From contig NZ_CP046606.1 of assembly GCF_030408355.1 (NCBI RefSeq), positions 1,178,001 to 1,242,000 on the forward strand: a DNA stretch of 64,000 nt. The letters are read 5' to 3'. Under the pieces are notes generated by a model. The model worked only from the letters and a program-made list of their open reading frames with translations, was not told the DNA's origin and searched no databases. The translations under genes and the position numbers were made by a program. This DNA comes from Corynebacterium afermentans subsp. afermentans (GTDB lineage: Bacteria > Actinomycetota > Actinomycetes > Mycobacteriales > Mycobacteriaceae). Shown in pieces: positions 18,556 to 60,823 of the stretch (the stretch's first letter is position 1; each line of letters opens with the position of its first letter).

Positions 18556-19431
18556 CTAGAACACGTTCAGACCGCGACTGCGGAAGATCTCGCGGACGTG
18601 TTCCACGGACTCCGGCGACGGAGGAGAGACCCCCTTGAGCTCGTAGTCCATGCCAATGCGGTTCCATTTGTCCTCGCCCATGTTGTGGAAGGGGAGGACC
18701 TCAACGCGCTCCACGGTGCCCTTCCAGCGTGCGACAATGTCGGCCACGGCCTGCACATTGTCCTCGCTGTCCGTCAGGCCGGGCACAAGCACGAAGCGGA
18801 TCCACACCGATTTGCCCTTTTCGTGCAGCCGGTCGCCGAAGTCGATCGTCGGCTGCAGCTGGCGCGCGGTGACATTCTCGTACGTATCGGGCAGACCCGA
18901 CTTCACGTCCAGCAGGAACAGATCGATGTTGTCCAGGTCCTCGTCCGTCAGGCGGGAGCCGAGGAATCCGGAGGTGTCGATCGTGGTGTGCACACCAGCG
19001 TCGTGGACTGCCTTGAGCAGGCGACGAGTGAACGCGATCTGGAATAGCGGCTCACCGCCGGAGAGGGTCAGTCCGCCACCAGAGGCGTTGAACACCGGCT
19101 TGTAGCGAAGCACGCGGCGCACGACATCGTCGATTTGCTCGAGCGTGCCGTCCTTCATTTCCATCGTGTCCGGGTTGTGGCAGTACTTGCACCGCAGCGG
19201 GCAACCGGACAAGAAGATGGTCATCCGGGTGCCGGGGCCGTCGACAGCTGTGACCAGCTCCCACGAGTGGATAAGACCAATCTCGCCTGTGCGGCGGGCC
19301 TCAAACAGCTCGGGGCGGGTGATCTCAAGGTCGTCGGTGGACAGTCCGCCTAAACCGGCAGCGACGCCGCGCACGCGCTCGCCCTGTTCGGGCGCAAGCG
19401 TGACGACGCCGCTAGTTCCGTCCTGCGCCAT
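18556..19431 (-). CDS. pflA: Pyruvate formate-lyase activating enzyme
   Basis: A 291-residue radical SAM enzyme that installs the glycyl radical on pyruvate formate-lyase. The cluster motif CPLRCKYCH (CxxxCxxC) is at about residues 77-85, after GTRMTIFLSG. The SAM-binding GGE motif follows (LTLSGGEPLF), and the C-terminus has EVLPFHNMGEDKW. About 45 residues precede the domain and are longer than in E. coli PflA (246 aa). It is last in the pflB-glycyl subunit-pflA operon, 3 bases after the small gene, so all three are cotranscribed. Confidence 0.95.
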   Translation of the reverse strand: MAQDGTSGVVTLAPEQGERVRGVAAGLGGLSTDDLEITRPELFEARRTGEIGLIHSWELVTAVDGPGTRMTIFLSGCPLRCKYCHNPDTMEMKDGTLEQIDDVVRRVLRYKPVFNASGGGLTLSGGEPLFQIAFTRRLLKAVHDAGVHTTIDTSGFLGSRLTDEDLDNIDLFLLDVKSGLPDTYENVTARQLQPTIDFGDRLHEKGKSVWIRFVLVPGLTDSEDNVQAVADIVARWKGTVERVEVLPFHNMGEDKWNRIGMDYELKGVSPPSPESVEHVREIFRSRGLNVF

Positions 19432-19434
19432 ATG

Positions 19435-19686
19435 TTAAGCGCCCTGGTGGAAGGTACGGGAGATGACGTCGCGCTGCTGCTCCTTCGTCAGCTTGACGAA
19501 GTTGACGGCGTAGCCGGAGACACGAACGGTGAGGTTCGGGTAGTTCTCCGGGTGCTCCATAGCGTCCTCCAGCGTGGACTCGTCCAGCACGTTGATGTTG
19601 GCGTGGTACAGGCCGGAGTCCATGTTGTTAGCGGAGCGGGAAGCCTTCATGGAAGCGAGGCGCTCGTCGAAAGTAGGGGTGGTCAT
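19435..19686 (-). CDS. Separate glycyl-radical subunit of pyruvate formate-lyase (GrcA/YfiD-like)
   Basis: An 83-residue protein equivalent to the last 60 residues of E. coli PflB. It shows [20 protein letters not shown] and then the radical site RVSGYAVNF with Gly58, followed by [15 protein letters not shown]. coli has a similar spare part, GrcA (YfiD), that rescues oxygen-cleaved PflB, but E. coli PflB also keeps its own glycyl domain. Here the upstream pflB lacks that domain, so this protein should be an obligatory subunit rather than a repair part. It has its own ATG and Shine-Dalgarno (GAAGGAG), so it is not a frameshift remnant. Confidence 0.92.
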
Positions 19687-19731
19687 GATGTTTTCTCCTT
19701 CAGAGTGAAAAGGTGGATGGGGAAGTCTGAG

Positions 19732-21849
19732 TTAGGCGGGGTTGATGACCGTGTCGGCGTTGTCCATGATGAAGCCGGCGTCCAAGACACCGACCAGGTT
19801 GGTCACCTGCTCGTCCTTGTTTCGGCCCAGGCCCGACGGGGTGATGGTGTTGGTCAGCGAGATACCGTCCAGCGCATCGTTGTAGTCGAGCTTGCCCACG
19901 GAGAGCATGGACGCGACCATGCCGTGGTTGTCCGCGCCGTTCTCCGGGTTAGCGCCCGGTGCGAACGGGGTACCAGCCTTGTGGCCGGAGGGGAACGAAC
20001 CGGTTGCCTTGCCGTAGACCACGTTGGAGGTAATCGTCAGCACCGACTGGGTCGGGATGGCGTCGCGGTACAGCGGGATCGCCTTGATCTTCTGCATCAC
20101 CGTGTGCACCACCGTGGCCGCGATGTCGTCCGCGCGGTCGTCGTCGTTGCCGTAGAACGGGAACTCGCCCTCGGTGACGTAGTCGACGATCAGGCCGGTC
20201 TCGTCGCGGACCGGGGTGACCTTCGCGTACTTAATAGCCGACAGGGAGTCCGCCACGATGGACAGGCCGGCAATACCGCAGCCCATGGTGCGAACGATAT
20301 CGGAGTCGTGCAGCGCCAACTCGATGGACTCGTAGGCGTAGCGGTCGTGGCAGTAGTGGATGATGTTCAGGGCCTCGACGTAGGTGCCGACAACCCAGTC
20401 AAGCATCTCCTCGTACTTCTGCCAGACCTCGTCGAAGTCCAGCGGACCGTCGCCCTGAATCGGGGTGTGGTCGCCGTCGGTGACCTGCTTGCCGGTGACT
20501 TCGTCGCGGCCGCCGTTCATGGCGTACAGCAGAGCCTTCGCGGCATTGACACGGGCGCCGAAGAACTGCATCTGCTTGCCCACCTGCATCGGGGACACGC
20601 AGCAGGCGATGGCGGCATCGTCGCCCCACTTGTCGCGGATCTGCTTGTCGGACTCGTACTGCAGCGACGAGGTCTCGATGGAGATCGCGGCGCAGAATTC
20701 CTTGTAGCCCTCCGGAAGCGCCGGGTCCCAGAAGATGGTGATGTTCGGCTCCGGAGCCGGACCTAGGTTGCGCAGCGTCTGCAGTAGACGGAACGCGGTC
20801 TTGGTCACCTGGTGGCGGCCGTCCTCGGAGAAGCCGGCATCAGTCCAGGTTGCCCAGTACGGGTCGCCGGAGAAGATCTGGTCGTAGGCCTCGGTGCGCA
20901 GGAAGCGGACGATGCGCAGCTTGATCACCAGTGCGTCGATGATCTCCTGAGCCTCGACCTCGGTCAGGGTGCCGTTGGCCAAGTCGCGCTCGAAGTACGC
21001 ATCCAGGAAGGGGGAGAGGCGACCAATGGACATGGCGGCGCCGTCCTGGCTCTTCACGGAGGCGAGGTAGCCGAAGTAGGTCCACTGCACGGCTTCCTTG
21101 GCGTTGGTTGCCGGGCCGGAGATGTCGAAGCCGTAGTCCTCAGCCATCTTCTTCAGCTTCTTCAGCGCCTTGATCTGCTCGGCGTGCTCCTCACGGTAGC
21201 GAGCCCAGTGCTCGGAGAAGCCCTTCTCCAAGGAAGCGTCCTTCGCCTGCTGCTTCTCCTCGATGAGGAAATCCACACCGTAGAGAGCCACACGGCGGTA
21301 GTCACCGATGATGCGGCCACGGCCGTAAGCATCCGGCAGGCCCGTCACGATGTGGGAGGAGCGCGCCGCGCGGATGCGCGGGGTGTAGATGTCAAAGACG
21401 GCGTCGTTGTGGGTCTTGCGGTACTGCGTGAAGATCTTCTTCACGTCCGGGTTGACCTCTTTGCCGGCCTCCTTGATGGCCTGCTCAACCATGCGCCAGC
21501 CACCGTTCGGCATCATTGCGCGCTTGGTCGGAGTGTCCGTCTGCAGACCAACAACGACGTCGTCGTCCTCCGAGATGTATCCCGGCTTGAAGGCGTCGAT
21601 GTCGGCGGGTGTTTCCGTGTCCACGTCGTAGACACGGCGCTCACGCTCGACGGCGAGGTAGTTCTTGTCCAGGTAGTCCCAGAGGCGCAAGGTCTTTTCC
21701 GTGGCACCTTCAAGGAACGATGCATCCCCGTCGTACGGGGTGTAGTTGCGCTGGACGAAATCGCGGACGTCGATGCGTTCCATCCACGGGCCTGGCTTGA
21801 AGCCGTCCCACGCGCGGTTTTCAATTTGCGGCTCTGTCGAAACAGTCAC
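19732..21849 (-). CDS. pflB: Pyruvate formate-lyase catalytic subunit lacking the glycyl-radical domain
   Basis: A 705-residue formate C-acetyltransferase (pyruvate + CoA to acetyl-CoA + formate) that aligns with E. coli PflB from near its start (VRDFVQRNYTPYDGDASFL) to about residue 700. The catalytic cysteine pair is intact (IACCVSP, Cys416-Cys417), as is QSVLTITSNVVYGK. The chain ends after NLVGVLDAGF and DTVINPA, exactly where the glycyl-radical domain would begin; that domain is the next gene. The start chosen is GTG (VTVSTEPQ), 10 bases after AAGGA. A longer in-frame extension exists but has no homology. Confidence 0.95.
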   Translation of the reverse strand: MTVSTEPQIENRAWDGFKPGPWMERIDVRDFVQRNYTPYDGDASFLEGATEKTLRLWDYLDKNYLAVERERRVYDVDTETPADIDAFKPGYISEDDDVVVGLQTDTPTKRAMMPNGGWRMVEQAIKEAGKEVNPDVKKIFTQYRKTHNDAVFDIYTPRIRAARSSHIVTGLPDAYGRGRIIGDYRRVALYGVDFLIEEKQQAKDASLEKGFSEHWARYREEHAEQIKALKKLKKMAEDYGFDISGPATNAKEAVQWTYFGYLASVKSQDGAAMSIGRLSPFLDAYFERDLANGTLTEVEAQEIIDALVIKLRIVRFLRTEAYDQIFSGDPYWATWTDAGFSEDGRHQVTKTAFRLLQTLRNLGPAPEPNITIFWDPALPEGYKEFCAAISIETSSLQYESDKQIRDKWGDDAAIACCVSPMQVGKQMQFFGARVNAAKALLYAMNGGRDEVTGKQVTDGDHTPIQGDGPLDFDEVWQKYEEMLDWVVGTYVEALNIIHYCHDRYAYESIELALHDSDIVRTMGCGIAGLSIVADSLSAIKYAKVTPVRDETGLIVDYVTEGEFPFYGNDDDRADDIAATVVHTVMQKIKAIPLYRDAIPTQSVLTITSNVVYGKATGSFPSGHKAGTPFAPGANPENGADNHGMVASMLSVGKLDYNDALDGISLTNTITPSGLGRNKDEQVTNLVGVLDAGFIMDNADTVINPA

Positions 21850-21987
21850 AGTTGCACAGTCCTTCTTTAGAGCATTTGAGGATCTCGCGGCTGCGCTTGC
21901 CCATTTACTTACCCATGTACTTTCAAAGCGCGGGCCGCTCAAGAACCATTGTAAGCGATGATTCAGGGCTAATGGTAATACGATTGT

Positions 21988-59743: not shown

Positions 59744-60823
59744 ATGACGCTCTACGACCGCGCACTCAAGCTCATGTTCCTGTTGCCGCCGGAGCGCATC
59801 CACGGCATCATCAGCGGCGCACTACAGACGCTGCACCTGGCCACCCCGGTCAACCGAGTGATGGAAAAGGCCGTGCGCGTGCACGACCCGGTGCTGCGCC
59901 AGACCGTTTTCGGCGTGGACTTCCCCGCCCCGTTGGGCCTGGCGGCCGGCTTCGATAAGAACGCCGAGGCGATCGACGCTTGGGGCGCGGTCGGCTTCGG
60001 CTACGCCGAGATGGGCACCGTGACCCCGAAGTCCCAGCCGGGCAACCCCACACCGCGCTTGTTCCGCTTGCCAGAAGACAAAGCGATTTTGAACCGCATG
60101 GGCTTCAACAACAAGGGCGCGCTCATGGTCGCCGACAACCTCCGCGCGCGGCGCTCCCGCGACGTGGTGGGCATCAACATCGGCAAGAACAAGACGTCCG
60201 AAGACGCCGTGGCGGATTACCGCGCCACCGCGACGCTGCTCGGCGGGCTGGCGGATTACCTGGTGGTCAACGTCTCCTCCCCCAACACGCCCGGTCTGCG
60301 CGACCTGCAGGCGGTTAAGGAGCTGCGCCCGATCTTGGAGGTGGTAAAGAAGTCCACCACCACCCCGGTGCTGGTGAAGATCGCCCCGGATCTTTCCGAC
60401 GAAGACATCGACGCCGTGGCTGACCTCGCCGTGGAGCTGGACCTTGCCGGCATCGTGGCCACCAACACCACCATCTCCCGCGACGGGCTGAACACCCCCG
60501 CCTCCAGGGTGGAGAAGATGGGCGCGGGCGGGATCAGCGGTGCCCCGTTGGAGAAGCGTTCGCTCGAGGTGCTCAAGCGCCTCAACGAGCGCGTGGGCGA
60601 CAAGCTGGTGCTGGTCAGCGTTGGCGGCATCTCCACACCGGAGCAGGCGTGGGAGCGCATCGCCGCGGGCGCGAGCCTGCTACAGGGCTACACCCCGTTC
60701 ATCTACGGCGGGCTCGGCTGGATCCGCGGCATCCACCGCGGGATCGCCGCGCAGATTAAAGCCCACGGCCTGGACTCGATCGAGCAGGCCGTGGGCAGCG
60801 GGCTAGAGTGGAAAGCGCTTTAA
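59744..60823 (+). CDS. pyrD: Dihydroorotate dehydrogenase (quinone), class 2
   Basis: A 359-residue flavoenzyme of pyrimidine synthesis that oxidises dihydroorotate to orotate with menaquinone. Class 2 is indicated by the N-terminal membrane-associating helices ([19 protein letters not shown]). The catalytic base serine is in [14 protein letters not shown]. The FMN phosphate site is [20 protein letters not shown], and substrate contacts are in FNNKGA and NTTISRDGL. Its stop overlaps the stop of the convergent small membrane protein gene. Confidence 0.96.

Follow-up and report, generated by a model that had tools for sequence, protein, structure and literature searches.

A putative two-subunit pyruvate formate-lyase with a separately encoded glycyl-radical domain in Corynebacterium

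Introduction

The pfl locus of Corynebacterium afermentans subsp. afermentans raises the question of whether pyruvate formate-lyase (PFL), an oxygen-sensitive and central anaerobic enzyme, can be built from two proteins, one with the barrel and the other with the radical glycine. The locus lies in a stretch of 64,000 nucleotides (contig NZ_CP046606.1, positions 1,178,001 to 1,242,000), which as a whole is called the window here. An earlier note on this DNA claimed that pflB lacks its glycyl-radical segment, that a separate 83-aa gene with its own Shine-Dalgarno (SD) sequence supplies the missing part, including the radical glycine Gly58, and that pflA follows. The ORF list and the sequence bear out this layout, and the span given for the two genes, 19435-21849, is exact. 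The features of the locus are as follows:

21885..21940, minus strand: 5' leader hairpin of pflB, two stems, unnamed, directly after a -10-like TACAAT at 21948-21953 (found by eye)
19732..21849, minus strand: pflB, large and putatively catalytic subunit, 705 aa, predicted start GTG, stop TAA
19732..21849, minus strand: domains of the pflB product, PFL barrel and first part of Gly_radical (Pfam, NCBIfam and PDB alignment)
20599-20604, minus strand: cysteine pair Cys416-Cys417 of the large subunit (IACCVS, alignment with 1h16)
19687..19731, minus strand: intergenic gap between pflB and the small gene, 45 nt, with SD AAGGAG at 19695-19700
19435..19686, minus strand: small radical subunit, 83 aa, NCBIfam GrcA2 (NF008341, 167.9 bits, cut-off 145)
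19513-19515, minus strand: radical glycine Gly58 of the small subunit, in RVSGYAV (codon position counted by hand)
18556..19431, minus strand: pflA, 291-aa radical-SAM activase, extended at the N-terminus by ~50 aa (TIGR02493)

The mechanical ORF of pflB begins at ATG 22026 (764 aa), and GTG 21849 (705 aa) was preferred because it is preceded by an SD-like AGAAGGA and agrees with the alignment with relatives. The pflB product ends in NLVGVLDAGFIMDNADTVINPA, followed by the TAA at 19732. The small gene runs from the ATG at 19686 to 19435, and pflA starts 3 nt past its end.

Domain assignment of the two proteins

The Pfam Gly_radical profile (PF01228, 106 positions) is divided between the two proteins, with positions 1-65 on the large protein and 66-106 on the small one. 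The large protein gives 657.7 bits with the Pfam PFL-like profile (PF02901) and, when scored from residue 2, 986.9 bits with the formate C-acetyltransferase model TIGR01255, matching profile positions 1-679 of 744. The latter score is just under the curated cut-off of 994.2, and annotation that relies on full-length models can therefore miss such enzymes; the one in-frame fusion of the two genes described below (G122) scores 1041.6. The PFL barrel and the adjacent cysteine pair are present, and IACCVS aligns with identical letters in the PDB chain 1h16, which we take to be E. coli PflB with its 759 residues. The alignment of the large protein with 1h16 stops at residue 693 and the small protein aligns with residues 701 to 757, so that between them they span almost all of the enzyme. 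The barrel, the cysteine pair and the activase are thus those of E. coli PflB, but the E. coli enzyme is one chain while the corynebacterial enzyme is cut after the position of residue 693, and the radical glycine that TIGR01255 places on the same chain is found on the separate 83-aa protein. The break is flanked by unmatched residues: the large protein has 12 of them following LDAGF, and the small protein opens with 24. Such sequence on both sides would not result from a mere stop mutation in a gene of full length.

The small protein passes the curated score of only one of three related NCBIfam models, GrcA2, whose name is "autonomous glycyl radical cofactor GrcA2". With the GrcA model TIGR04365 it scores 86.3 versus a cut-off of 170 and matches only profile positions 67-124 of 126, the N-terminal half of GrcA being absent from the match, and with the GrcA3 model NF038360 it scores 100.4 versus 158. 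Among solved chains the closest match of the small protein is to 6owr, an autonomous glycyl radical cofactor, with 57 residues aligned. Residues R8, M12 and R16 of the small protein (numbered without the first Met) are invariant in the 16 sequences aligned. PflA scores 298.2 bits with the PFL-activase model TIGR02493, above the cut-off of 231.75.

Distribution and conservation in the genus

The genus was examined in a sample of 201 genomes that was drawn evenly from a larger group and includes the window. A Gly_radical (PF01228) match was found in 102 genomes and none in the other 99, about half of the sample. Both PFL halves are present in 97 genomes, one half alone in none, and one long match only in five; ten of the 97 PFL-bearing genomes also have a long Gly_radical match. 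The 15 long Gly_radical loci were considered as a possible second PFL and rejected, as they belong to class III ribonucleotide reductase: two were identified as NrdD by NCBIfam (621.0 and 621.8 bits) and the other 13 by their like C-terminal sequence. The genome of the window is a single contig of 2,375,453 bases (99.86% complete), and a search of it with PF02901 and PF01228 returned one PF02901 match and two PF01228 halves, all at the pfl locus, and no second PFL or full-length radical domain anywhere else. A second full-length PflB in the same genome, named in the earlier note as what would refute its reading, was thus looked for in the complete contig and none was found. With the two halves occurring together in 97 of 97 PFL-bearing genomes, the radical domain would be a separate and apparently indispensable gene product, as that note had proposed. 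A single formate/nitrite-type transporter is encoded elsewhere in the genome, at 399487-400197.

The split is present in 96 of the 97 PFL-bearing genomes, window included, and is therefore neither chance nor a sequencing slip. The loci of all 96 relatives were measured; 95 are split by a stop codon and one is fused in frame. In the 95 split relatives the gap between pflB and the small gene varies from 3 to 296 nt (median 41), is found in all three frames (38, 24 and 33 for frames 0, 1 and 2), and follows a pflB stop that is TAA in 64, TAG in 23 and TGA in eight. Of the 82 gaps of at least 15 nt, 78 have an SD-like five-mer within their final 20 nt, a count obtained with a loose pattern and without a chance control. 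RVSGYAV is kept in 96 of 96 relatives, and an activase gene lies downstream in all of them, at -7 to 266 nt in 95 and at 826 nt in G112. Measured from the position aligned with the start in the window, the small protein is 83 aa long in the relatives; the true start differs in G121, giving 84 aa. Compared with 12 close relatives, dN/dS is 0.02-0.10 for the large gene and 0-0.11 for the small gene.

Two genomes depart from this picture. The pflB of G171 (locus L156) is broken and only a C-terminal open frame of 95 codons remains, with the small gene and pflA intact; this genome was counted as split. In G122 (L145, 1684-4092) the pflB stop is absent and both frames run on as one of 803 codons; at the junction (L145 3790-3850) the small gene's ATG and an SD-like AAAGGA have been kept. 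This fusion is either a natural re-fusion, in which case a fused form would be tolerated, or an assembly error.

A probable two-subunit pyruvate formate-lyase and its alternatives

Very probably, pflB and the 83-aa gene encode two subunits of one obligate two-subunit PFL. The gene structure, the constant pairing, the conservation and the separate origin described below were observed, and docking, activation and catalysis are proposed by analogy with known PFLs. In the proposed enzyme, the barrel with its substrate pocket and cysteine pair would belong to the large subunit. The small subunit would add the final strand of the barrel (HANINV), together with the glycine loop and C-terminal helix. 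It would dock in the open barrel of its partner; on the complex so formed PflA would generate the glycyl radical at Gly58, and this radical would move to the cysteine pair in each turnover, as expected from PFL chemistry.

Among the alternatives, the one that survives best is that the pair is a glycyl radical enzyme for a substrate other than pyruvate, such as 2-ketobutyrate. The long branch of 0.58 changes per column before the corynebacterial clade would be compatible with a change of substrate, but the next-best family for the large protein reaches only 152.9 bits versus 986.9 for formate C-acetyltransferase, the cysteine pair is present and the activase passes the PFL-activase cut-off, and this alternative is considered improbable.

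It is still less probable that the small protein is a spare part of the GrcA/YfiD type that repairs a full-length PFL after cleavage by oxygen. Its NCBIfam name and the match to 6owr point in this direction, and GrcA/YfiD (6owr) and the T4 protein Y06I are likewise detached glycyl-radical domains. However, GrcA supplements a complete PFL after damage, while the corynebacterial small gene lies between pflB and pflA and encodes the only PFL radical carrier; neither in the genome of the window nor in the other 96 is there a full-length PFL to repair, bar the in-frame fusion of G122, and the score on TIGR04365 is about half of the cut-off. An exclusive spare-part role was rejected as there is no complete PFL in the genome. 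The window protein is a member of GrcA2, the name of which implies an autonomous role, but the genome context is that of an obligate subunit. One study describes only YfiD and Y06I as validated spare parts (PMC8683613), and another states that Fusobacterium nucleatum has no such cofactor (PMC12288474).

The two remaining alternatives are scarcely credible: that pflB lost its end and both pieces are relics, for which the broken large gene of G171 might be cited, is at odds with the retention of both pieces in all 97 genomes, the low dN/dS, the invariant RVSGYAV and the SD-like five-mers, and that stop-codon read-through or frameshifting yields one full-length chain, for which the agreement of the two frames in the window might be cited, is at odds with the varied gap lengths, frames and stops of the 95 other split genomes, their differing gap sequences and the small gene's own start codon. 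The spare-part, decay and read-through explanations all fail because the gaps are found in all three frames and dN/dS does not exceed 0.11.

For the preferred two-subunit reading, the closest experimental parallel is a construct of E. coli PFL cut at residue 695. According to that study, PFL 1-695 combined with YfiD has wild-type-level activity once activated, and YfiD without cleaved PFL gives no detectable activation (PMC8683613). The same study reports that binding of PFL 1-695 to YfiD is undetectable by calorimetry, that PFL 1-695 with YfiD is activated 32-fold less (has less radical) than the form cleaved at 734, and that the N-terminal half of YfiD and residues 696-733 aid docking (PMC8683613). 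The corynebacterial large subunit ends close to 695 and is therefore the natural counterpart of this construct, and the pair as a whole that of the hand-built PFL cut at 695 plus YfiD. Such a split does not work for free, since the E. coli pair binds weakly and is activated 32-fold less. In the corynebacterial enzyme docking is probably secured by the first 24 aa of the small protein (FDERLxxMKxxR) together with the tail of 4-19 residues on the large one, and the conserved N-terminal stretch is the best candidate for restoring docking. The N-terminal extension of PflA (~50 aa, before HSWE) is alike in the seven corynebacteria read and in L250 and L251, less alike in L146 and only weakly so in neighbours whose enzyme is fused; as a guess, it may recruit the small subunit. 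Docking, the flipping-out for activation and oxygen repair become testable with natural, co-adapted partners.

The earlier note knew of no published description of this arrangement in corynebacteria. Among the papers listed by searches of an open-access library none deals with a split PFL, which is weak evidence of absence as most subscription papers and preprints lie outside it; to that extent the statement stands. It does not hold for the databases, which already have the GrcA2 family and, in the PDB, split-type large subunits of a second lineage. Curators know the small proteins, since families named GrcA2 and GrcA3 exist. In the genomes examined these entries look like subunits and not spares, because they adjoin a PFL without the domain.

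Origin of the splits

A maximum-likelihood tree was built from 59 large proteins cut before the break (quick search, LG+G4, midpoint root). The 22 corynebacterial-type rows, which comprise 21 split proteins (one of them from G339, outside the genus) and the G122 fusion, form one group with a support of 100 that nests inside the actinobacterial full-length PFLs (support 96 and 99). The stem of this clade is long, as given above, and the second split type is placed elsewhere in the tree. In the AU test, joining both split types as one clade was rejected at a cost of 166 log-likelihood units (p-AU 1.7e-9), and the second type alone as one clade was not (p 0.33). As the long stem may distort the tree, single branches are not relied on; at least two independent fissions are concluded because the likelihood difference is large and the break points differ. 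A single event in a full-length actinobacterial pflB is the most likely source of the corynebacterial break, which lies in the loop at PflB ~694-700.

The corynebacterial type outside the genus

When the GrcA2 model was run over 396 genomes of the phylum, 66 matched at all and two passed the cut-off, that of the window and G339. In the family of G339 three of 99 genomes pass (G339, G690 and G737), all with the split arrangement; for G690 and G737 only the C-terminal part of the large gene and the small gene were read. Four further genomes of this family match with a long frame, and the three of these that were read are full length at the junction. A GrcA2 entry also exists in Dermatophilus congolensis. 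With so few carriers outside the genus, there has been little spread of the corynebacterial type, for which transfer is a possible route. Among phages, 1534 records matched the small protein, and for 1081 of these the identity was 60-80%.

A second split type

A second split type was found in Coriobacteriia, Gastranaerophilales and some Clostridia, with Olsenella, Gastranaerophilales and some Ruminococcus as examples in which GrcA3 accompanies a short PFL. Both types have in common a large PFL without the radical glycine and a short radical gene. In the second type, however, the large protein matches the profile only as far as 663-670, 9-16 positions short of the 679 reached in the corynebacterial type, and the NLVxxxDxY helix is on the small protein (NF038360, GrcA3), unlike in the corynebacteria. 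At 21 loci from two other families of the phylum (L042-L062) the large PFL ends shortly after LGK, the short gene opens with the NLVxMxDxY helix, and the large proteins have new tails, many of them cysteine-rich. In the class to which these loci belong, 35 of 119 genomes are above the PFL cut-off, six with full-length and 29 with split enzymes, and a separate C-terminal match is present in 29 of the 29 split genomes. The names returned by a protein search were Olsenella, Atopobium and Thermophilibacter, labelled GrcA3 or GrcA. These three genera are presumably Coriobacteriia.

Named genomes were scanned with the sequence of PDB entry 38la. Among the best 80 of the 116 loci, 18 are full length (by title 12 Paenibacillus, two Epulopiscium, two Cryobacterium, one Leptotrichiaceae and one Prevotella) and 62 are split, with the small gene within the locus in 58 of the 62. 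By title the split ones are mostly Gastranaerophilales, gut bacteria and Clostridia such as Ruminococcus, with Lachnoclostridium phytofermentans among them. As the query 38la is a split enzyme itself, this sample is biased. When the phylum of L. phytofermentans was sampled evenly, 57 of 199 genomes were above the cut-off, and of these the centre genome alone is split. Some groups thus have the second type as a rule, but across this phylum it is rare.

PDB entry 38la is a natural 666-aa protein ending in NSLGKED, with an identity of 100% (rounded) over the 662 residues searched (P0241) and of 99% to a protein of Amygdalobacter nucleatus, from which the short PFL alone was examined. The alignment of PDB entry 38lb (739 aa) with a large subunit of the split type extends through the special tail IENxxDCACxADASAxEG. 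Both are deposited under the name formate acetyltransferase and, judged by these alignments, look like large subunits of the second split type.

For three of the four remaining split loci, L177 (G774), L175 (G779) and L199 (G780), the same genome has the small gene on a different contig, which for L177 was told from the accession number. The large and small genes can be unlinked, since ~3.9 kb downstream of L177 shows no small gene. At seven loci from uncultured genomes (L201, L204, L207, L208, L210, L212 and L244) the small protein is prolonged at its C-terminus by a long tail, and these tails share a motif, approximately S[VI]GSMSMPS.

A possible role for oxygen

It may be that the small protein is a single-use radical cartridge, an idea we regard as tentative and somewhat doubtful. 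Oxygen would destroy only the 83-aa subunit, which would be swapped on a reused large subunit, and fission of the radical domain would be recurrent, having evolved at least twice. If this were the case, the enzyme would survive air cycles at about one tenth of the residues of a new enzyme. The gut bacteria with the second split type are strict anaerobes, and oxygen as the single cause is thereby weakened.

The leader of pflB

A Rex-like palindrome upstream of pflB was considered and rejected, as it is found in one of 83 leaders, that of the window, and is not conserved; simple FNR and GlxR patterns were found in none of the 83. Rfam gave no match to the leader, either in the window or at ten other loci, and the folding energy is not unusual (z 0.36). 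The pflB mRNA seems to begin with a two-stem hairpin ahead of the SD sequence, a candidate leader RNA. The stems in the window are GCGGC/GCCGC and GCGCTT/AAGCGC, and other species have different matching stems such as GGGGC/GCCCC and ATTGCT/AGCAAT (by eye, leaders L064-L145). The two-stem score is above the 95% point of shuffles in 11 of 57 leaders, with 2.9 expected. Seventeen leader rows were aligned, most of them model seeds and one a chance hit at 60806. Pairing is seen in 95.6% of their cells versus 90.0 in shuffles, and nine cells are changed on both sides versus 1.7; pairs with two-sided change (3 versus 1.4) and pair types (8 versus 8.1) do not stand out. Beyond its 13 seeds the RNA model R1 matched three near relatives and one chance hit in 80 sources, and because of these few matches it does not unify the leaders of the genus. 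In the genome of the window, with 150 of 362 candidates scored, the sole match of the leader model is the pflB leader itself.
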